Below are positions 12,241-25,167 of a stretch of 64,000 nt of DNA, piece after piece. Each line of letters starts with the position of its first letter. Within the stretch, counting starts at the first letter, position 1. The notes under the pieces are model-generated. The model had not been told where the DNA came from, did no database searches, and was given only the letters and a program-made list of their open reading frames with translations. Made by a program: the position numbers and the translations under genes. Origin of the DNA: Akkermansia massiliensis (GTDB lineage: Bacteria > Verrucomicrobiota > Verrucomicrobiia > Verrucomicrobiales > Akkermansiaceae); the NCBI RefSeq assembly GCF_023516715.1, contig NZ_JAMGSI010000002.1, forward strand, positions 992,001-1,056,000, written 5' to 3'.

Positions 12241-13032
12241 ATGAAGAACCTTTTTAGACTGGGTTTCCGTTTCGCCGCATTTGCTTCCGTCCTGATGGCC
12301 GCGTTTTCTACATCCGCCTTTGCTCAGGAAGCTGCCGAAGCCGCTGTTCCGCAGGAACAGACCATGCTTGACAAATGGATCATCGCCGGTGGTTGGACCA
12401 TGATCCCGATTATGCTGGTGGAAGCCTTCATCGTTTTCCTGGTAATCTACAACATGGTGGCTCTGAAAAAGGAAAAATTCTGTCCGGAAGACCTCAAGGT
12501 CACCCTGCTGCAGCTGATGGCCGAATGCCGCATCCGCTCTGCCATTGAAGTGGCAGCCGGCAGCCCCACCTATCTGGGCCGCCTGGTTGCGTATGCCCTG
12601 CCGAATGTGGACGCCACCCGTCCGGAAGACCTTGGCAAGGACGCCATTGAAGACGCCGTAGCCGACTTTACGGCCAATGAAAGCCGTTCCGTATTCAAAT
12701 GGATTAACATGCTGGCCCTTTGCGCGCAGATTTCCCCCATGCTCGGCCTCTTCGGTACGGTGCAGGGGATGGTGGGCGCGTTCGGCACGCTGTCAAGCGC
12801 CGGACAGGCAGACCCCACCCAGCTTGCCGGTGACATCTCCGTGGCTCTTCTGACGACCTTCTGGGGCTTGATCAACGCCATTATCGCCACGCCGTTCTTC
12901 TTCTTCCAGAAGGGCATCGCCAACGCCCATATTGCCGAATGCGTAGGCACCGTGCAGGAAATGGTGAACACCTCCATCAACGTGGTGAACGCCGAAGCCC
13001 AGCTTGCCCGCATTCCCGAAGGCCTGGCCTGA
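12241..13032 (+). CDS. exbB: ExbB/TolQ/MotA-family proton channel subunit
   Basis: A 263-residue inner-membrane protein. A signal-like N-terminus (to about AFAQEA, residue 30) is followed by a first transmembrane helix (WTMIPIMLVEAFIVFLVI, about 51-68), a cytoplasmic loop, and two further helices: residues 160-185 with the family signature SPMLGLFGTVQGMVGAF, and about 205-230 (ALLTTFWGLINAIIATPFFF). With ExbD it forms the proton-driven stator that powers a periplasmic partner. It leads the operon exbB-exbD-exbD-fusion. The cleavable N-terminal segment before TM1 is seen in some ExbB proteins. Confidence 0.93.
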   Translation: MKNLFRLGFRFAAFASVLMAAFSTSAFAQEAAEAAVPQEQTMLDKWIIAGGWTMIPIMLVEAFIVFLVIYNMVALKKEKFCPEDLKVTLLQLMAECRIRSAIEVAAGSPTYLGRLVAYALPNVDATRPEDLGKDAIEDAVADFTANESRSVFKWINMLALCAQISPMLGLFGTVQGMVGAFGTLSSAGQADPTQLAGDISVALLTTFWGLINAIIATPFFFFQKGIANAHIAECVGTVQEMVNTSINVVNAEAQLARIPEGLA

Positions 13033-13110: not shown

Positions 13111-13617
13111 ATGGGTAAGAAAAAAGCCAATGTAGCGGCCGACGAAGAGAGCGGGGAAATGGATATGTCCCCCATGATCGACATGGTTTTCCTCCTGTTG
13201 ATCTTCTTCGTGGTGAACGCTACGGCCATTACCGTTAAAAAGGATAAGAACATTCAAATGCCCACGGCCAGCAGTTCCGGTGAAGTGAAATCCGCCAACG
13301 GCTGTATCGTGGTGAATGTGTACGGTGAAGGGGATGGAAAGCGTCCCGCCGGCATGGACCCCAACGTTCGCTGGGCTTCCGATGTCAGTGCGCCGCTCAA
13401 CTCTCCGGATGAACTGAAGGAATATATCAAAAACCTTGCGGAACGCTTCAAGGACAAGCAGGACTTTGAAACCCGCCTGTATCTGCGCGGCGACCAGAAG
13501 GCCCTGTTCAAGGGCTCCCGGGAAGTGATTCGCGTGGCTGCGGAATGTGGCGTGGTCAAGGTGATCTTTGCCGTATTGCCTGCTAAAAATTCCTCTGCTG
13601 CAAACAAGGCCGAATAA
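13111..13617 (+). CDS. exbD: ExbD/TolR-family motor subunit 1
   Basis: A 168-residue single-pass protein. A short cytoplasmic N-terminus leads into DMSPMIDMVFLLLIFFVV, where Asp24 is at the conserved proton-carrying position of the ExbD helix. The periplasmic domain follows (NGCIVVNVYGEG, RLYLRGDQKALFKGSREV). It contains an insertion (KRPAGMDPNVRWASDV) not usual in short ExbDs but shared with the fusion protein at 14167-14988. It lies 78 bases after exbB and 11 before the second exbD. Confidence 0.92.
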   Translation: MGKKKANVAADEESGEMDMSPMIDMVFLLLIFFVVNATAITVKKDKNIQMPTASSSGEVKSANGCIVVNVYGEGDGKRPAGMDPNVRWASDVSAPLNSPDELKEYIKNLAERFKDKQDFETRLYLRGDQKALFKGSREVIRVAAECGVVKVIFAVLPAKNSSAANKAE

Positions 13618-13628
13618 CATTACGCGCT

Positions 13629-14087
13629 ATGGCAAGACATAAAAAATTGGAGATGGTTGAGGATGAAGATCCCAAGCTGGATATTTCCTCCCTCATCGAC
13701 GTGTGCTTCCTTCTGTTGATTTACTTCATTGTGGCGACCTCCCTGATTCAGGAACGCAAGCTGGACATGTCCATGCCGGGGCAATCCGTGAGCGATACCG
13801 CCTCCCAGATTGAACCGGCGCTGATCCGCATCATCAAGGACGGCACCATTTACTGGGGCAAGGACAACAGCCTGATGATTGACAATGACATGAACAACCA
13901 TAACCTGGCGACCCTCGTGCAGCAGCTGGAAGCCAAGAAACAGGAAGCCAGCGCCGTAGGCACCAAGCCGGTAGTTCAGTTGTGGGTGGAGGGCGATGTT
14001 CCCCACCAGCGCGTCATTGACGTCATGAACGCTTTGACAGAAGCAGGAATTACCACGGTGGCCCTGACCGACCTCAAGGACGACTAA
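13629..14087 (+). CDS. ExbD/TolR-family motor subunit 2
   Basis: A 152-residue paralogue of the ExbD family. SSLIDVCFLLLIYFIV carries the conserved Asp24 in the membrane helix, and the periplasmic domain ends with PVVQLWVEGDVPHQRVIDVM. It is only distantly similar to the first ExbD, so the motor may use a heteromeric ExbD pair, as in several gliding or TonB-like systems. It begins 11 bases after the first exbD. Confidence 0.92.
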   Translation: MARHKKLEMVEDEDPKLDISSLIDVCFLLLIYFIVATSLIQERKLDMSMPGQSVSDTASQIEPALIRIIKDGTIYWGKDNSLMIDNDMNNHNLATLVQQLEAKKQEASAVGTKPVVQLWVEGDVPHQRVIDVMNALTEAGITTVALTDLKDD

Positions 14088-14166
14088 GCCATTCACGGAT
14101 GGACCGTGTTATTGATGTTCGGCTTCCCTGCAAGAGTGTGGAAGTGGCCCGCTGTCTTTTTTTCTT

Positions 14167-14988
14167 ATGGTCCGGTCAAATCATGTAGCCCGGTGGGGGG
14201 CAATCCTGATCGTCTTCTCGAACGCCGTTCAGGCATTACCGTTGAAGGCGTCTCAGGAATCGGGCGCCTGCCGCAGCATCCCGGTTTCCGAGACGGCAGG
14301 ATGTAGTGCGCGGCGGGGAGAGGAAGGCCTTCAGATGCAGGAAGATGAACATTCCGGAGAAATCAGGTCCTCCTTCGGCAACATCGTGATTAATGTGTAT
14401 GGCAAAAAGGAGGACAGGCGTCCGGAAGGTATTGATTCCAGTATCCGCTGGGGATCCGGCTCCCATGAGCCTCTCCATTCCCCGGAAGAACTAAAGAAAC
14501 ATATCAAGAAGCAGGCAGAACAGCTGAGGGCAAAGGGCTGTAAGGAGCCTTTCCTCTATCTGCGCGGTGACCGGAGGGCTCTCTTCACGGATTCCCGCGA
14601 AGTTATACAGGTTGCCGCAGAATGCAATGTGAAGAGGGTTCGTTTTTCCGGACCTCCTGTTGCAGCAGTTCCAGGCATTCCTGAAAGGCCGCAGAGCGGG
14701 ACGGTTTCATCAATGCCGTCCGCTTCCATTTTTCTTCTTCCGCATGCTCTCTTTTACGGTAACGGGAATGGCCTTTTTTATCCTCTGGTGGAGGAGAAAG
14801 GGAGCCTGGGGGTTATCGTCGAGTGGCTGAAAAACAAAAAGCGGAGCGCGGGGAGGGCGGGAGGCAGGGTAGTGGTTCAGTTAATGGTGGCTGGAGATGT
14901 TCCCAATCAGCGCGCCGCAGCTGTCATGGATGTTTTGATGAGAGCCGGGATGGACTCAGTGGTCCTGAAAACTTTCAAGGATAGTTGA
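14167..14988 (+). CDS. Periplasmic fusion of two ExbD periplasmic domains, no membrane helix
   Basis: A 273-residue protein with a signal-like N-terminus (about 1-25, WGAILIVFSNAVQALPL). Residues about 55-160 align with the periplasmic part of the first ExbD: SGEIRSSFGNIVINVYGKK against SGEVKSANGCIVVNVYGEG, and YLRGDRRALFTDSREVIQVA against YLRGDQKALFKGSREVIRVA. Residues about 190-273 align with the second ExbD: VVVQLMVAGDVPNQRAAAVM against PVVQLWVEGDVPHQRVIDVM. Both transmembrane segments and their proton-carrying Asp residues are absent. The order matches the gene order, so it probably arose by tandem duplication and fusion of the two neighbours. A role as a modulator, cap or scaffold of the motor is inference. 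A terminator follows at 15014-15053. Confidence 0.8.
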   Translation: MVRSNHVARWGAILIVFSNAVQALPLKASQESGACRSIPVSETAGCSARRGEEGLQMQEDEHSGEIRSSFGNIVINVYGKKEDRRPEGIDSSIRWGSGSHEPLHSPEELKKHIKKQAEQLRAKGCKEPFLYLRGDRRALFTDSREVIQVAAECNVKRVRFSGPPVAAVPGIPERPQSGTVSSMPSASIFLLPHALFYGNGNGLFYPLVEEKGSLGVIVEWLKNKKRSAGRAGGRVVVQLMVAGDVPNQRAAAVMDVLMRAGMDSVVLKTFKDS

Positions 14989-15013
14989 GAGAGGGGCGTT
15001 CATTTCGTTAATG

Positions 15014-15053
15014 GCCGGAATTTGCTCCGGCTCGGAATGCCGGATCTTTTTTT
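15014..15053 (+). terminator. Intrinsic terminator of the exb operon
   Basis: Two overlapping hairpins are possible: GCCGGA (15014-15019) with TCCGGC (15026-15031), or CCGGC (15027-15031) with GCCGG (15039-15043). The second is followed by ATC and seven T residues. The alternative pairing resembles a terminator/antiterminator pair. Confidence 0.65.
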
Positions 15054-15238
15054 GAAAGAGCAGGATTCTCAGAGATAAAAAGGCCTTTTTGGTTCCAAAC
15101 CCAATCCTCCCTTAAGGGAACGCGAGCAGGAAGAACTTTCTTGCAAGGATGACTAAAAATACAGAACTTTCTGCTTTAGAGTTTGCAGCATCCTGTTAGA
15201 ATGACGCAATCCATTACAGATAGGTGCATTCCGTGCAT

Positions 15239-15295: not shown

Positions 15296-18200
15296 ATGAT
15301 CAAATCAAACTATACTACTGCACTGGCTGCAGGCCTGGTTTCCGTGGTGAGCATTGGGGCGGCGCTCCCGTCCAGTGCCCAGCATGGCCCGCGCGATTAC
15401 CAGCGCACGGCCCTGACCGCCATGAAGGAAGGCAAGTGGCAGGAAGCCCTGGATGCCGTGGACCGCTGCATCCGCGTTTATGAACCCCGTATCAAGACGC
15501 TGGGGCTGGATGACGGCTTCGGCTGGTTCTATTACCAGAAGGGCGTCTGCCTGGCCCAATTGAAGCAATACAAGGAAGCTGTGGAAGCGTTCAAGGCGTG
15601 TTACACCAAGTTCCCGAGCGCCAAGAACCAGCTCGTGAAAATGGCCCTGTTCCGCGAGGGGGAAAACTATTGCCGCCTTGGGGATTTTGCCAAGGGCGCG
15701 GAGCTGCTGGAGAAATTCCTGAAGGAATACCGCAGCGACCCTGTAGCCCGGAATGTTAATGCCGGTGAAGTGCAGGGACTGCTGGCCCAGTGTTATTTCA
15801 AGATGGATCCGCCCGCCTTTGAGAAAGGGCTGGAAAACCTTACCTCCTGCGTCACCTCCCGCTACAAGGGGCGCCGCATTACGGATGCCGTCATCACCAA
15901 CGGCTTCCTGGCGATGGTGGATGCCGCCATCAAGACCGGCAAATGCCAGGAAACGGTAAAATTTGTGGAAGCCCATCCTTCCGTGATGAACATCAGCCCC
16001 ACCCGCGTGGCGCTGTACGCTCCCCGGCTGGTGAGCTACATTGCGGAAGTGCTGGAAAAATCCCGCGCCCTTCTCCAGGAAGGAAAGCAGAAGGAGTCTG
16101 AAGACTACGCCTCCCTGGCAATGGTGCTGATGGGCCTCCTGCCCGACCAGGCCGGAGTGCTGGCGGACGCCAACCATTCCCTGGACCGCCTGGGACGCGC
16201 CAACGGCGCCGTGCCCGGCGTGACGGACCTCTCCCATACGCTGGACAGGACGAAGGTGACCGCCCTGATTGACCAGTTCAACAAGATGAAGGAGGAAGGG
16301 AAGGTCATGGACGCCTTCACGTTCAGTTTCATGGGCAACCAGGCCCTGGTGCATGGTTCCCAGCGGGTCGCCCGCGCCGCTTACCAGCTTATCAATGAAT
16401 CCTATCCGGACGCCCCGGGCAGGGAGGACAACCTCTATTACCTGGCCATGACTACCTGGCAGTTGGGAGAAGCGGACAAGGGCGGCGAGCTTGTGGCGCA
16501 GCACCTGAAGGAATTCCCGAATTCCAAGTATGCCCCCATGCTGAACACCCTGTCCCTGGAAGGACTGCTGAAGGACAAGAAATTCGATCTCTGCGTCCAG
16601 CAGGCGGACAAGGTCATGGAGCTGCACAAGGACGACCCCACCCACAAGTTCTATGAATTGGCCCTGTACTGCAAAGGCGCCTCCCTGTTCAACCTGGGGG
16701 CTGCGGACGCCGCCCGCTACAAGGAAGCGGTGCCGGTGCTGGAACGCTTCGTGAAGGAATACCGTGACAGCACCTACCTGAAAACGGCCATGTACCTGCT
16801 GGGTGAAACCTACACGAACCTGGGCAATACGGATGAAGCCATCCAGGCCTTCACCAATTACATTGCCCGTTTCCCGGACAAGAATGACGCCAATATGGCC
16901 GCCGTGCTTTATGACCGTGCCTTCAACTACCTGAACCGCAAGAACCCCGGAGACGAGGAGCTTGCCACGAAGGATGCGAAGGAAATCGTGGACAACTTCA
17001 AGGAGCACCGCCTGTTCCCGTATGCCAACAACCTGCTGGCGAACCTGTATGCCGGCAGCAAGGAGCATGAACAGGAAGCGGAAGGCTATTTCCTGGCCGC
17101 TCTGGAATCCGCCAAAAAGCTGGGCGACAAGCGCCCCGCCGCGGAAGCCGTGTACAACCTGCTCATCAATGCCACCAAGAAACCTCTCCCCGTAGAACCG
17201 AAGGAAGCCGTGGAAGCGGCCAGGACGGCGCGACGGGACGAAGTCAAGAAGTGGTATGACGAGTACTGGAAGAACAGCGACCAGCCCGGCAGCCGCTACA
17301 GCCTCCAGCTGGCTGCCGCAGCCATGGACTTCTTCAAGGACGACAAGGAGATGTTTGACCCCGCGTCCGTCAAGATGCAGGAAGTCATTGTGAGGGAAGG
17401 CAAGAAGGACGATCCCAAGATGACCGTTCTTCTGGAGGAAGCCGTCAACTCCTACACCAAGACGTACATGGCCGGCAATCAGGCGCTGGGCCGCAATCTG
17501 GACGCCAACGCCATGCGCAACCACTTCTACCGGTTCCCCGGCGTGGACAATGACAAGGACAAGACGCTGAGCGCCATGCTCCGCATGGCCGTCATTGCCC
17601 AGACGCAGGAACGGTATGAAAAGGCTCCCACGGAAACGGACGAACAGCGTGCCGAGAAGGCCGCTCTGGAAGGTCTGGTCAAGCAGCTCTTCGTGGAGCT
17701 GAAGCGGGACTTCAAACCTTCCGACCTGCCTCCGTACACGCTCGTGAAGCTGGGTGTCCACCTGGCCAATACGTCCCAGCCGGAAGAAAGCATCGCCTAC
17801 TTTGATGAAATCCTGGACCCGTCGGAACCTGATCCGGTGCGCAAGAAGGCCCGCATCAACGGCATGTCCAAGTACCGCAAGAATGCGGTCTTCGGGAAGG
17901 CCGTTGCTCTGGGCCGCAGCAAAGATAACGCCAAGGTGGAAACCGCCATCAAGATGATGAAGGATGAACTCAGCAAGGAGGAATCCAGCGCCAACCCGGA
18001 CCGCAAGGCCATGGAAGACGCCCAGTACAACCTGGTCAAGTTCACCTCCGCCCGCCAGGACTGGCCGTCCGTCATTGCCGCCGCCGACAAGTACCGCGAG
18101 AACAAGTCCTACAAGAAGAATCTGCCGGAAGTCCTCTACCTGCAAGGTGAAGCCTACCTGAAGCAGAACGAGCTGGACAAGGCCCTGATCAACTTCATGA

Positions 18201-18529
18201 ACATCACGGGCACGTACAAGGGCCTCGTGAAGTGGTCCGCTCCCGCCGTGCTTGCACAGATGGATACGCTGTGGAAGAGGAACACGATGTCCCAGGGGGC
18301 GGGCAAGCAGCCGTCCGACAGGTATATCGCCTGGAAGGCCGGCAGCCAGTATGTGCAACTGCTGGATACTCCCGCCAACCGCAAGAAGATGACGGCAGAA
18401 GACAGTGCCCTGGTCAACGAGGTGAAGGATAAGACGGCCAAGTTCGGCTCCGATCCCGCCGTCAGCCAGGAACGGGCGGACATCGCCGCCTATGAAGCCG
18501 CCATACGCGCCGCCAAGGGCCAGAAGTAA
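15296..18529 (+). CDS. Large exported TPR-repeat protein
   Basis: A 1077-residue protein with a signal peptide (MIKSNYTTALAAGLVSVVSI, cleavage near SSAQ). The mature part is helical throughout, with many tetratricopeptide-like units, for example WFYYQKGVCLAQLKQYKEAV, LYYLAMTTWQLGEADKGGEL and AMYLLGETYTNLGNTDEAIQ. The arrangement resembles the long periplasmic TPR proteins (YbgF/CpoB or gliding-associated type) found next to ExbB/ExbD motors. ATG 15296 is chosen because it starts the signal peptide; the frame is open to 15224 without similarity. It probably scaffolds or couples the motor to the outer envelope; its direct partner is unknown. Confidence 0.82.
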   Translation: MIKSNYTTALAAGLVSVVSIGAALPSSAQHGPRDYQRTALTAMKEGKWQEALDAVDRCIRVYEPRIKTLGLDDGFGWFYYQKGVCLAQLKQYKEAVEAFKACYTKFPSAKNQLVKMALFREGENYCRLGDFAKGAELLEKFLKEYRSDPVARNVNAGEVQGLLAQCYFKMDPPAFEKGLENLTSCVTSRYKGRRITDAVITNGFLAMVDAAIKTGKCQETVKFVEAHPSVMNISPTRVALYAPRLVSYIAEVLEKSRALLQEGKQKESEDYASLAMVLMGLLPDQAGVLADANHSLDRLGRANGAVPGVTDLSHTLDRTKVTALIDQFNKMKEEGKVMDAFTFSFMGNQALVHGSQRVARAAYQLINESYPDAPGREDNLYYLAMTTWQLGEADKGGELVAQHLKEFPNSKYAPMLNTLSLEGLLKDKKFDLCVQQADKVMELHKDDPTHKFYELALYCKGASLFNLGAADAARYKEAVPVLERFVKEYRDSTYLKTAMYLLGETYTNLGNTDEAIQAFTNYIARFPDKNDANMAAVLYDRAFNYLNRKNPGDEELATKDAKEIVDNFKEHRLFPYANNLLANLYAGSKEHEQEAEGYFLAALESAKKLGDKRPAAEAVYNLLINATKKPLPVEPKEAVEAARTARRDEVKKWYDEYWKNSDQPGSRYSLQLAAAAMDFFKDDKEMFDPASVKMQEVIVREGKKDDPKMTVLLEEAVNSYTKTYMAGNQALGRNLDANAMRNHFYRFPGVDNDKDKTLSAMLRMAVIAQTQERYEKAPTETDEQRAEKAALEGLVKQLFVELKRDFKPSDLPPYTLVKLGVHLANTSQPEESIAYFDEILDPSEPDPVRKKARINGMSKYRKNAVFGKAVALGRSKDNAKVETAIKMMKDELSKEESSANPDRKAMEDAQYNLVKFTSARQDWPSVIAAADKYRENKSYKKNLPEVLYLQGEAYLKQNELDKALINFMNITGTYKGLVKWSAPAVLAQMDTLWKRNTMSQGAGKQPSDRYIAWKAGSQYVQLLDTPANRKKMTAEDSALVNEVKDKTAKFGSDPAVSQERADIAAYEAAIRAAKGQK

Positions 18530-18555: not shown

Positions 18556-19620
18556 ATGAAAGCACTTTCAGTAATAATGGTATTGGCCGGCTTGTCCACC
18601 CTGGTTCCGGCTATGGCTCAGAATGCCCAGAATCCCCAGCGCCTGCGCGCCAGGGCTGCCGCTCCGGCCATCAAGAATGGCCGCCCGACGGATATTTACA
18701 TTCTTTCCGCCAACGGCCCCATGGTCCAGTTCGTGGAAAGCCGGGAATCCCAGGAAGTCCTCCAGCAGATGGCCAGCGCCTTCAAAACGCTGTACATCTT
18801 TGAAACGGATGATTTCGTGGACGCCAAGGTGGCTATGGAAAACCGGAAATACCAGGACGCCCGCAACAAATTCCATGCCCTGGTGAACAAATATGCCTCC
18901 ACGCTTTCCATCAAGGACAGCCTGTCCGCCCGGGCGGCCGTTTATGAATTGGAGTGCGCCATGCGCATGATGGACTGGGCCGGGGTCAAAGGCCTGCTGG
19001 CCAAGTTCCCCGTAAGGGGTTCCAATCTGTCCCCCTCCGCCCAGGATGATCTGGAGGTTGCCAAAATCATGGCCCTGATTCCGGACAAGGACTGGAACGG
19101 CGTGAAAAGCCGTGCCGCCTCTTTCCTGGCCACCAAGAAAAATGCCACCCGCCTTCAGCAGGCGCGGATGAAGTATGCTCTTGGGGCCGCCGCCATGGTG
19201 GCCCAGGATTGGAACAAGGCTCTGGATTACTTTGCGGAAGCCCTGGTGCTGCTGCACGGTTCCGATGAAGAACTGGCCTCCGCCTGCGTGGTGCGTTCCC
19301 TAGACTCCTACCTGCACATGCCGGATGTGGCCAAGTTCCTGGAGGATTCCGCCGTGACGGCTGCCGTGGAAGCCAGAAAACACAATCCTGAAACCGTGAT
19401 TCCCGACTTGCAGATGAAGGCCCGTCCCGCGCACGTCAAGGAAGCGGCCGCGCTGTACCGCCTGCATGAACTGATGCTTCCGGACAGGAAGCTGCCGGCC
19501 AAGTACGATGGGTTTGCGGTTTCCTACAAGCATCCCGCTGCCGTTGCTCCGGCCCAGACTCCCGCTCAGGCGCCTGCCCAAGCCCCGGCACAGGCTCCCG
19601 CCCAGCCGGAGAAAAAGTAG
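18556..19620 (+). CDS. Exported helical protein with Ala-Pro-Gln tail
   Basis: A 354-residue protein with a signal peptide (MKALSVIMVLAGLSTLVPAM). The middle is helical and TPR-like (ARNKFHALVNKYASTLSI, MKYALGAAAMVAQDWNKALD). The last 30 residues are a repeated P-A-Q-A tail before EKK, which is typical of a flexible linker through peptidoglycan. It starts 26 bases after the large TPR gene and the pair share one terminator, so they probably work together in the periplasm. Confidence 0.75.
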   Translation: MKALSVIMVLAGLSTLVPAMAQNAQNPQRLRARAAAPAIKNGRPTDIYILSANGPMVQFVESRESQEVLQQMASAFKTLYIFETDDFVDAKVAMENRKYQDARNKFHALVNKYASTLSIKDSLSARAAVYELECAMRMMDWAGVKGLLAKFPVRGSNLSPSAQDDLEVAKIMALIPDKDWNGVKSRAASFLATKKNATRLQQARMKYALGAAAMVAQDWNKALDYFAEALVLLHGSDEELASACVVRSLDSYLHMPDVAKFLEDSAVTAAVEARKHNPETVIPDLQMKARPAHVKEAAALYRLHELMLPDRKLPAKYDGFAVSYKHPAAVAPAQTPAQAPAQAPAQAPAQPEKK

Positions 19621-20386: not shown

Positions 20387-22060
20387 TCAGGCCGCAGTGC
20401 GCCGGCGCCGCAGCATGGAGAGGGAAAAGCCGAACAGGCCCAGGGCAGCGGCAGCCGGTTCCGGCGTGTTGAAATTGACGCCTACGTAGCCATCCCGGCT
20501 CATATCCAGCTTATACCCTCCTTCCGTCCGTACTTCCAGCCCTTCCAGGCTGATGCCGTTCCCTGCCAGTTTGAAGTAAACCATGCCGGACCCATCCACC
20601 GGAAGAGCGTCCGGAGTTCCCATCAATTGAAGGATTACATTGTTGAATAAAAGAGAGCCGGAGGCTGTGGAATTCCCCTCCAGGCTGAACAGGGGCTTGT
20701 CCTGGCTCAGGGAGGCCATATCCAGGGTAATGGTCAGGTTTTCCAGGGTGACGGAAGCGCCCGGGGAAAGGGATGAGCCCTGGATGCTGATGGAATGGAA
20801 GTTTTTCAAATCGCTTGAAAACGTGAGGTCCGTCTCCGCCGGTTGGAAGACCATGGTGTTGAAGCCTGTTCCTCCGTCCACGCTGCCGTTCACTGTTCCG
20901 CCGGAATAGGAAAATACATCGTCGCCGGAACCCATGACCACCGCCTGGCCGCTGCCTCCTGTAATGGTTCCTCCTTCCATGAAGATGCAGTTCTCCCTGT
21001 CGCTGACAATCCTGATGCCCACGCCGTTGGCGCCTGTTCCCTCAATGGTGCCGCTGTTGGTGATCCGGATGGCTTCAAAGGCATTGCCGCCGTCGGAATC
21101 ATCCACCAGAATGCCGTAGGCCTGGCCGTTCGTGTTGGAATTGGAAGCCGTGATGGTCCCGGTATTGGTTACGACGCCCCCGCCGATGGCAAGGCCGTCC
21201 GCACTGCCGAAGGAGTCCTTGGCAATAATCGTGCCGGAATTGGTCAGGTTTACGATGTAATCCACGTCCACGCCGTCGCCGTCCAGGGTGGTTGCGTCTC
21301 CGGTGCCGCTGATGACGCCGTCTTTGCCGTTAACCACGGTGACCACGTACTTGTCGTCCTGCTGGAGGGCGGCGTTCCAGTCCCAGTTCAGGCCGGAACC
21401 TCCCCTGCCTTCAATCCTGCCGTTATTGCTGATGGCGGCTTTCCCTTCTCCGGTAACTCCGTGTTTCATGCCGGTGATTTTCCCTCCGCTGTTGTTGGCA
21501 AGATCCAGGCCATGGGCAAAGGTGTCAATGCCGTCGTCTTCCGGATCGTAATGCTTGGCCGTGATGCCGTTTTCCCCCGCAGCCGTGGTTTCAATCGTGC
21601 CATTGTTGGTCACAGTGGCGTTATTGCCCAGTTTGACGGCTCCTTTCTGACCGGCGGAAATGGTACCGTTGTTGGTGATGGTGGCGGACGTGTTGATCAT
21701 GTAGCGCAGGTCGATGGCCTGTTTTTCCGTTCCGGTCATCGTGCCGGAATTGGTCACGCTGATCAACTGTCCCGTTATTCCGTTTTCCATGCCCTGGTCC
21801 AGGACAAGGGCGCTTTTTCCGGAAATCCTGCCTCCTTCCATTACCGCGATCTCAAGGGCGGACTGGATGGGGTCTTTCAGGTTGACGGCATTTTTGGCGA
21901 CGTTCAGGAATCCGGTTCCCGTGACGGTCAGTTTGCCCTCCGTCATGTTGACGGCCTTGGTCTGGGTGTCGCTGATGGTCTGGTCCGCAAGGGAGGGCGC
22001 GGCAAGCAGAACCGCCGTGGCCAGGGTCGTGGCTGTGGAATAAAGATGGTGTGCCTTCAT
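20387..22060 (-). CDS. PEP-CTERM surface protein with repetitive beta-helix
   Basis: A 557-residue exported protein. The signal peptide (LATAVLLAAPSLAD) is followed by repeated parallel-beta-helix-like units containing NSGTM, NNGTI and NSGTI (for example TITNNGTISAGQKGAVKLGN). Residues about 530-557 form the PEP-CTERM sorting signal: NTPEPAAAALGLFGFSLSM then RRRR. This tail is processed by an exosortase in species that have one, leaving the protein anchored at the cell surface or in the exopolysaccharide. The NNGT repeat style also occurs in autotransporter passengers, but there is no beta-barrel here. No exosortase gene is in the window. Confidence 0.88.
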   Translation of the reverse strand: MKAHHLYSTATTLATAVLLAAPSLADQTISDTQTKAVNMTEGKLTVTGTGFLNVAKNAVNLKDPIQSALEIAVMEGGRISGKSALVLDQGMENGITGQLISVTNSGTMTGTEKQAIDLRYMINTSATITNNGTISAGQKGAVKLGNNATVTNNGTIETTAAGENGITAKHYDPEDDGIDTFAHGLDLANNSGGKITGMKHGVTGEGKAAISNNGRIEGRGGSGLNWDWNAALQQDDKYVVTVVNGKDGVISGTGDATTLDGDGVDVDYIVNLTNSGTIIAKDSFGSADGLAIGGGVVTNTGTITASNSNTNGQAYGILVDDSDGGNAFEAIRITNSGTIEGTGANGVGIRIVSDRENCIFMEGGTITGGSGQAVVMGSGDDVFSYSGGTVNGSVDGGTGFNTMVFQPAETDLTFSSDLKNFHSISIQGSSLSPGASVTLENLTITLDMASLSQDKPLFSLEGNSTASGSLLFNNVILQLMGTPDALPVDGSGMVYFKLAGNGISLEGLEVRTEGGYKLDMSRDGYVGVNFNTPEPAAAALGLFGFSLSMLRRRRTAA

Positions 22061-23375: not shown

Positions 23376-24971
23376 CTACTGCCCGGATTGGTACAGCGGC
23401 TTGTTGTCGTACCGGGCGTCGTAAATGGCGAAGGATTCGCGGTGCTGGTTGTGGTCGCCGCGGAAGATCAACCTTCCGCTGTGCTGGCGTTCCAGTTCCA
23501 TGAGCAGGCTGGCGTCTTCATTCTTGAAGCGGGAGAGCACCTCCGAGTTTACGACGATGACCATGTCCCCGATGGTTTCCCTGTATTTCTGGATGCAGGC
23601 GTAGATCTGCCGCTGAATTTCCACGCTCATGGTCATCACGGATTTGACGCGGCCCCGGCCTCCGCAGTACGGGCACGGGTCATGAACGGATTCCCGGAGG
23701 CTTTCATTGAGCCGCTGGCGGGTCATTTCCATCAGGCCGATGGGGGTGATCTGCAGTACCTGGGTCTTGGCCTTGTCGCGCTTCAGGCGGTCCTTCATGG
23801 CTTTGTACACGGCCTGCTGGTCCTTCCTATGGCGCATGTCGATGAAGTCCACCACCACCAGGCCGCCGATGTTGCGCAGGCGGAGCTGTCTGGCGATTTC
23901 ATAGGCGGCTTCCAGGTTGGTGTCCAGAATGGTCTTGTCCAGGTCCTTGGTGCCCTTGTTGCGCCCGGTGTTCACGTCAATGGCGATCAGGGCTTCCGTC
24001 TCGTCAATCACCAGGTAGCCGCCGCAGGGCAGGAGCACCTGGCGCTGGAAGGCTTCGTTGATTTGTTTTTCAATCCCCAGTTCTTCAAAGATGGGCGTGC
24101 GCACGGGGAAGTGCTGGATGTGGCGCTTGGCGCGACGGGAGATTTTTCCCGCAATGGAGCGCATGTGCTCCGTAGTTTCCGCGTCGTCGCAGATGATGTT
24201 GTCCACGGTGTCCGTCAGGAAGTCCCGTGCCGTGCGTTCGATCAGGTCGGGTTCCCGGTACACGCAGACGGGGGCGGGGTTGGCCTCCTTTTTTTCCTCC
24301 ACGCCGTACCATTGCTCCAGCAGCATGGCGAGGTCGCGGACAAAGTGGCGGTAGCGCTGTCCCTGGGCCACCGTGCGCATGATGATGCCCATGCCGTCCG
24401 GCACGTTCAGCTTCTGCATGATCTGGCGCAGGCGCAGGCGTTCCTTGGGGTCTTCAATCTTGCGGGAGATGCCGAACTGGTCCGTGAAGGGCATCAGGAC
24501 CAGGTAGCGTCCCGCCAGGGAGACGTTTGTGGTGACGCGGGGGCCCTTGGTGCCGATCGGGCCCTTGGTGACCTGCACCATGATTTCGGAGCCGATGGGG
24601 TAGATGTCCGGAATGTCCTTGGACGTGATTTTGCGCTGCTGCTTCTTTGGCCGTCCTTCGCGTTCGATTTCTTCCAGGCTGGAGTCCAGCGCGGCGGGCA
24701 GAGCGTCCCAGAAGTGGAGGAAGGCGTTCTTTTCCTGGCCGATGTCCACGAACATGGCCTTGAGGCCCGGTTCGATGTTTTTGACGCGGCCCTTGAAGAT
24801 GCCGCCTACGATGTTGTCTTCGCCTTCGCGCTCGATGGTGTATTCTTCCAGTACGCCGTTTTCCAGAAGGGCTACGCGGCGTTCGAGTTTCTCGGCATTG
24901 ATGATGATGGTGGAGCCTTCCATGGGATCACAGGATCCGAAGCCGAAGGCTCGTTTAATTTTTTTAAGCAT
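23376..24971 (-). CDS. rng: Ribonuclease E/G
   Basis: A 531-residue endoribonuclease of the RNase E/G family, acting in rRNA maturation and mRNA decay. It has an S1 RNA-binding domain (about 40-120, GGIFKGRVKNIEPGLKAMFV), the catalytic core with metal-binding aspartates (ALIAIDVNTGRNKG and LVVVDFIDM), and the zinc-link motif DPCPYCGGRG. There is no long C-terminal degradosome scaffold, so it is RNase G-like. The S1 domain has an insertion (LEEIEREGRPKKQQRKITSK). The ATG at 24971 is preferred; a GTG at 24983 is also in frame. Confidence 0.93.
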   Translation of the reverse strand: MLKKIKRAFGFGSCDPMEGSTIIINAEKLERRVALLENGVLEEYTIEREGEDNIVGGIFKGRVKNIEPGLKAMFVDIGQEKNAFLHFWDALPAALDSSLEEIEREGRPKKQQRKITSKDIPDIYPIGSEIMVQVTKGPIGTKGPRVTTNVSLAGRYLVLMPFTDQFGISRKIEDPKERLRLRQIMQKLNVPDGMGIIMRTVAQGQRYRHFVRDLAMLLEQWYGVEEKKEANPAPVCVYREPDLIERTARDFLTDTVDNIICDDAETTEHMRSIAGKISRRAKRHIQHFPVRTPIFEELGIEKQINEAFQRQVLLPCGGYLVIDETEALIAIDVNTGRNKGTKDLDKTILDTNLEAAYEIARQLRLRNIGGLVVVDFIDMRHRKDQQAVYKAMKDRLKRDKAKTQVLQITPIGLMEMTRQRLNESLRESVHDPCPYCGGRGRVKSVMTMSVEIQRQIYACIQKYRETIGDMVIVVNSEVLSRFKNEDASLLMELERQHSGRLIFRGDHNQHRESFAIYDARYDNKPLYQSGQ

Positions 24972-25167
24972 TTTTGTAAACACGGGGTGTGAATAAGCTA
25001 GGGTGTGCTATTGCCCGCAATGTTCCCGGAGGGCCGCCTCCCGGCAGGAGCGGCTGGATTTCAAGCTGTGGAGATGGCCGGAGAGGAATCATGCAGGCAG
25101 ATGCGTTGATGTGATGCGGCAGTACGGCAGGCGCAAGGCCGGAGCGCTGGCTCCGGAGGTTCCGTCT

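Follow-up and report, generated by a model that had tools for sequence, protein, structure and literature searches.

The closest described relatives of the locus considered here are the mucin utilisation loci of Akkermansia and the ExbD/TolR family of motor proteins (PF02472). MUL1 is described as one of two loci for mucin transport and processing in A. muciniphila, and has been likened to the Sus system (PMC13174399), while a second account presents the MUL genes as required for internal accumulation of mucin products (PMC12418764). The MUL1 motor genes are thought to serve mucus-sugar import in Akkermansia. According to two structural accounts, isolated ExbD periplasmic domains dimerise, with the open form binding the TonB D-box between two protomers, and also contact peptidoglycan; the ExbD/TolR periplasmic domains used in such work are recombinant, soluble, single-domain constructs without the membrane helix (PMC10771500, PMC12905483).

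The window, meaning the whole stretch of 64,000 nucleotides that was analysed, carries a MUL1-like cluster in which an additional gene, encoding a natural tandem of two such domains, lies between exbD2 and a large TPR gene. The features that matter here are as follows.

12241-13032, + strand: exbB (MotA/TolQ/ExbB family, PF01618; 1e-22, 80.7 bits)
13111-13617, + strand: exbD1, parent of half 1 of the fusion; most hydrophobic stretch at residues 22-40
13629-14087, + strand: exbD2, parent of half 2; most hydrophobic stretch at residues 22-40
14114-14163, + strand: degraded terminator in the gap between exbD2 and the fusion gene (hairpin of -10.4 kcal/mol and T-run)
14167-14988, + strand: fusion gene; its product looks secreted, carries two periplasmic domains of ExbD type and lacks a transmembrane helix (parent matches and fold models)
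14167-14235, + strand: signal-peptide-like segment, residues 1-23, read by eye; possible cut after VQA
14314-14658, + strand: half 1, residues 50-164, derived from the ExbD1 periplasmic domain (direct match and model)
14674-14985, + strand: half 2, residues 170-273, derived from the ExbD2 periplasmic domain (direct match and model)
15026-15054, + strand: terminator-like hairpin and T-run 3' of the fusion gene (six sites of this kind in the region, against 4.5 expected from shuffling)
15296-18529, + strand: large TPR protein of 1077 aa (profile searches)
18556-19620, + strand: Mul1B family protein (NF052542; 279.9 bits, cut-off 75)

Because the last of these genes matches the Mul1B family, the cluster is identified as MUL1, which was reportedly defined by Davey et al. 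in 2023, and the TPR protein, the large neighbour named in the original prediction, is presumably Mul1A. The order exbB-exbD-exbD, then the TPR protein and the Mul1B-family protein, is that of MUL1 of Akkermansia; the locus differs from MUL1 of ten close relatives in the extra gene, which is whole only here, the relatives having a spacer of 359-1419 bases at this point. The genome holds four ExbD-family places above cut-off, two of them inside MUL1 and the others at C2:62875-63237 and C1:1152524-1152880; these four were found at E ≤ 0.001 in a six-frame search with PF02472, and the fusion was not among them. The single TonB C-terminal domain of the genome (C2:78594-78782) lies on the same contig as MUL1, more than 900 kb away. 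Elsewhere in the window, 20387-22060 on the minus strand encodes a 557-residue repetitive surface-type protein with a PEP-CTERM-like tail, as judged by eye. Adjacent pairs of ExbD-type reading frames, as in MUL1, were seen at 23 of 26 verrucomicrobial and other loci (L087-L111, L142).

The fusion gene begins with ATG and encodes 273 residues in an open frame, the remaining five frames across the same interval containing 7-13 stops apiece. Residues 50-164 match ExbD1 without gaps (49% identity over 115 residues, E 3e-37), and ExbD2 is matched by residues 170-273 (34% over 105 residues, E 3e-16), so that the halves stand in the order of the two genes upstream. This bears out the proposals that the protein consists of the periplasmic part of the first ExbD followed by that of the second, and that it arose from the adjoining gene pair. 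The loss of both helices is likewise borne out: each match begins directly past the parental transmembrane helix, the helix with its conserved Asp is absent for both parents, and the maximum 19-residue hydropathy falls from 2.40 and 2.58 in the parents to 1.28 in the fusion, leaving no transmembrane-like stretch. The signal-like segment was also recognised, by eye, as a hydrophobic GAILIVFSNAV followed by VQA ahead of half 1, and this signal-peptide-like start gives the protein a secreted look.

Profile searches gave little. PF02472 aligned to residues 223-270 only, at 23.4 bits, which is below the gathering score of 25.4, and half 1 had no Pfam match up to E 1, so that Pfam recognises part of half 2 at most. 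Searches with the fusion protein yielded nothing in NCBIfam up to E 0.1 and nothing relevant among PDB sequences. With profile evidence this weak, the assignment of half 1 to ExbD rests on its direct match to ExbD1 and on the predicted fold. The model of the whole protein, built with 23 alignment rows, contains two alpha/beta domains (mean pLDDT 69, pTM 0.67), with pLDDT below 50 at residues 1-11, 18-65 and 163-182. The five best structural matches to it were TolR 5by4 (Z 12.5, rmsd 3.6, 94 residues aligned) and four ExbD entries, 8p9r, 8vgc, 8vgd and 8pek (Z 9.6-8.4), with the next, unrelated row at 7.4, a ranking that mainly probes half 2. Half 1 modelled alone (pLDDT 73) placed the same five entries first at Z 8.6-7.2, four of the five being under 8 and middling by the scale of the tool, with the next row at 5.2. 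A Foldseek comparison on its own placed TolR fourth, among unrelated folds, and a match of model residues 8-17 to the N-terminal strand of TolR was set aside, as this is a low-confidence stretch. An ExbD/TolR-type periplasmic fold is predicted for both halves from models whose alignments consisted of the parents and their relatives and are thereby biased towards the parental fold. The alignment rows came from 69 loci found in a contig scan with ExbD2 and were in-frame read-through rows, separate parent fragments having both aligned onto half 1.

The protein thus resembles the ExbD/TolR family, and the MUL1 ExbD1 and ExbD2 in particular, in its two periplasmic alpha/beta domains and their order, but it departs from that family in lacking the helix and the proton-carrying Asp, in its secretion-type start, in carrying two domains per chain, and in its sub-cut-off Pfam score. 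With the recombinant ExbD and TolR heads it shares solubility and the absence of a helix, whereas it joins two different heads in a natural tandem. Among the literature matches listed, at the level of titles and abstract openings and with most subscription papers outside the coverage, no description of a secreted double-ExbD protein was found.

The idea that such a protein is a general component of ExbB/ExbD systems found no support. The fusion is whole in one of 76 genus genomes, its own, and in one of 239 genomes of the order, which were a sample of a larger group, with some match in 28 and 39 of them, respectively; among the matches listed in both searches, none apart from its own copy covered more than 144 of the 273 residues. 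A conserved exbB-exbD-exbD-fusion order in Verrucomicrobiota was sought among the 239 order genomes and none was found, and the contig scan with the fusion protein as query found no relative. One genus genome of about 99% completeness (G044) had no fusion match and a best E of 8.7e-4 for the MUL1 ExbD2; it may be without MUL1 or incomplete there.

Ten genomes with an ExbD2 at least 95% identical to that of the window were taken as close relatives, and the fusion gene is frameshifted in four of them, reduced to a fragment in one, and without detectable trace in five. In the window 1208 bases separate exbD2 from the TPR gene; this spacer is 1419 in G046, 1148 in G040, 1178 in G041 and 1183 in G042, the four frameshifted copies, and 558 in G045, where a fragment is left after large deletions. 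The window copy has no frameshifting indel, and relative to it 9 events were counted in G046, 16 in G040, and 23 each in G041 and G042, the last three counts being rough, as these copies are only about 47% identical to that of the window. In G043, G067, G069, G048 and G004 the spacer is 359-419 bases and held no fusion match beyond the parents; in the more distant G047, G015 and G089, about 230-280 bases separate exbD2 from the TPR gene by tblastn coordinates. The reading frame is disabled in all five relatives that retain any of it. Absence with signs of decay, which the original prediction named as a refutation, extends to every close relative and stops short of the window copy, whose frame is open with a point estimate of weak coding constraint. 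Because it is broken or untraced in all ten, the gene is dispensable. The fusion is a rare, disappearing accessory: the object is real and was correctly described, but it is not a conserved new component.

The remnants also speak to the origin of the gene. In G046 the halves meet at a fused junction of nearly equal length, uninterrupted by a transmembrane segment, and the translation from a TTG opens, as judged by eye, with a hydrophobic stretch, MRLSNSVLLGVLLVSW; the broken copies in G040 and G042 have hydrophobic starts similar to that of the fusion. Because of this junction and these starts, the common ancestor probably already had a fused, secreted-looking protein. The synonymous distance of half 1 to the parents within the group is 1.0-1.5, against 0.5 between the ExbD1 of the window genome and that of G040 or G004, and since the former exceeds the latter the duplication is old by the standard of the group. 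These sequences are explained best by a single duplication and fusion in the ancestor and repeated loss thereafter, with the fusion either lost from, or never present in, the branch of G004, G048 and G069. Separate duplications in each species are less likely, as the remnants share the start region and junction (best seen in G046) and a common stem in the codon tree, the topology of which was preset by the analyst.

The reading that we prefer, at a probability of roughly 0.45, is that the protein imitates the ExbD1:ExbD2 head in soluble form and is dispensable, a lineage-restricted accessory of MUL1 that would tune the motor by binding its partners. Almost as likely is that the gene is a relic, functional in the ancestor and until recently here, now idle and due to decay as it did in the relatives, all ten of which either have it disrupted by frameshifts or deletions or are without trace of it. 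As to coding constraint in the window copy, a branch codon model gave an omega of 0.40 for the fusion branch and 0.07 for the parents (2dL against 1 = 4.64), and when the broken copies were added the window branch stood at 0.41 (2dL 5.86), the broken branches at 0.98 (2dL 0.0) and the stem at 0.53 (2dL 5.0). On a smaller tree the window omega was 0.46 with a likelihood-ratio statistic of 4.42; none of 140 neutral simulations on that tree reached so low an omega, and 3 of 140 reached that statistic, all with omega above 1. These values below 1 on the larger trees speak against an idle gene. With G046 as the sole broken copy, however, the window omega of 0.48 was indistinguishable from 1 (2dL 1.14, p 0.29; broken branch 0.79), so the support depends on which broken copies are included, and the non-significant test against this single relative favours a relic.

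Site counts were similarly divided. Substitutions found in the window copy alone are weighted towards the third codon position (26/94, 31/103 and 42/100 at the first, second and third positions), and those private to G046 do not (17/85, 20/92, 19/77). Differences from the short G045 fragment, in an alignment that is partly doubtful, numbered 14, 18 and 13 of 58 sites each, and this lack of a third-position excess again fits a relic, as do the weakness of the constraint and a third-position GC of 0.586, against 0.66-0.80 in five other measured genes of the locus. On the other side, the window copy is free of stops and frameshifts where its nearest relative gathered nine frameshifting indels, and in neutral simulation stop-free runs made up 0.7% at the fitted 0.78 changes per codon, 5.6% at 0.4 and 22% at 0.2. 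These comparisons are moderate evidence that the window copy remained a coding gene through most of its history; present function is not proven.

Transcription signals would favour expression, and in this respect also tell against an idle gene. The hairpin with T-run that follows exbD2 is strong in all ten relatives (-19.9 to -24.3 kcal/mol) and degraded only in the window, and this, together with the terminator-like site at 15026, suggests that exbB, exbD1, exbD2 and the fusion gene may be transcribed together in the window genome. A promoter scan listed no sigma-70-like site in the gap behind exbD2, which is little informative, as none was listed before exbB either. With an open frame, omega estimates of 0.41-0.48, where broken copies have about 0.8-1, and a degraded exbD2 terminator, the window copy is not plain junk.

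The block that carries the gene has a different affinity from its surroundings. The non-coding edges of 14085-15125 are 83-93% identical to G043 and G045 and 58-66% identical to G046, whereas for exbB, exbD1, exbD2 and the TPR gene the identity is higher to G046 (96.5-98.7%) than to G043 and G045 (91.6-95.1%). The gene at 23376-24983, elsewhere in the window, is also nearest to G046 (99%). Recombination between species, in one direction or the other, probably transferred the fusion block, and a copy that arrived in this way, as a G043/G045-like block within a G046-like neighbourhood, would be compatible with a relic.

The preferred reading, a head mimic that tunes the motor, may be set out as a sequence of events. 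Comparison with the relatives supports the first steps: the exbD1-exbD2 pair was duplicated in the ancestor from which the A. muciniphila group descends, on the simplest account a single time; the two copies fused, both transmembrane helices disappeared, a hydrophobic secretion-type start stood in front, and the gene was later disabled or deleted in most descendants. Where it persists, the protein would presumably be exported to the periplasm and there mimic the paired ExbD1:ExbD2 head. It would be unable to drive the motor, because it has neither the channel helix nor the proton-carrying Asp, and although its gene adjoins exbB, a protein without the helix presumably cannot enter the ExbB pore. 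By analogy with the binding behaviour of ExbD heads, a helix-free chain with both heads could occupy their partners without driving the motor; it may damp or tune the motor, whether it binds the TPR protein, for example, or peptidoglycan, or pairs with free heads. A bolder form of this idea is that the protein serves as a naturally occurring, soluble decoy of a proton-driven 5:2 motor, a secreted double-head chain that competes for the partner and throttles mucin import, and that its gain, loss and exchange by recombination between Akkermansia species make it a strain-level switch of mucin use; as it stands we regard this as unlikely.

Less likely still is that the ExbD fold has merely been borrowed for a new and unrelated secreted function, such as that of an envelope or surface-binding protein. 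Very long branches would suit such a change of role: in trees of the separate halves, half 1 grouped with the A. muciniphila-type ExbD1 proteins, G047, G015 and G089 on a branch of 1.36 changes per column, too long for finer placing, and half 2, at 6.5 changes per column, was unplaced. The residue make-up of the fusion differs from that of the alignments, and family-invariant residues were not significantly preferred over variable ones in half 1 (24/39 kept against 32/72, p 0.11) or in half 2 (18/43 against 18/59, p 0.30), which also tells against constraint in the window copy. Nevertheless, the gene still lies within the motor locus, and the match of half 1 to ExbD1 runs ungapped over its full 115 residues. 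A chance reading frame or an assembly artefact, which occurrence in one of 76 genus genomes might otherwise bring to mind, is highly improbable given the homologous remnants or fragment in five of the ten relatives and the strength of the matches to both parents.

What the finding means depends on which of the leading readings applies, and for either of them the series of remnants in five relatives is a warning against inferring a conserved new component from one genome. If the window copy is a relic, the locus preserves the record of an ancestral duplication and fusion inside MUL1, of repeated loss, and of a spacer exchanged between species. If it is functional, the protein would be a natural inhibitor or tuner of the ExbB/ExbD motor that acts by binding only, would make it easy to test whether the motor can be blocked by free ExbD heads, and would point to mucin import that differs between strains of Akkermansia.
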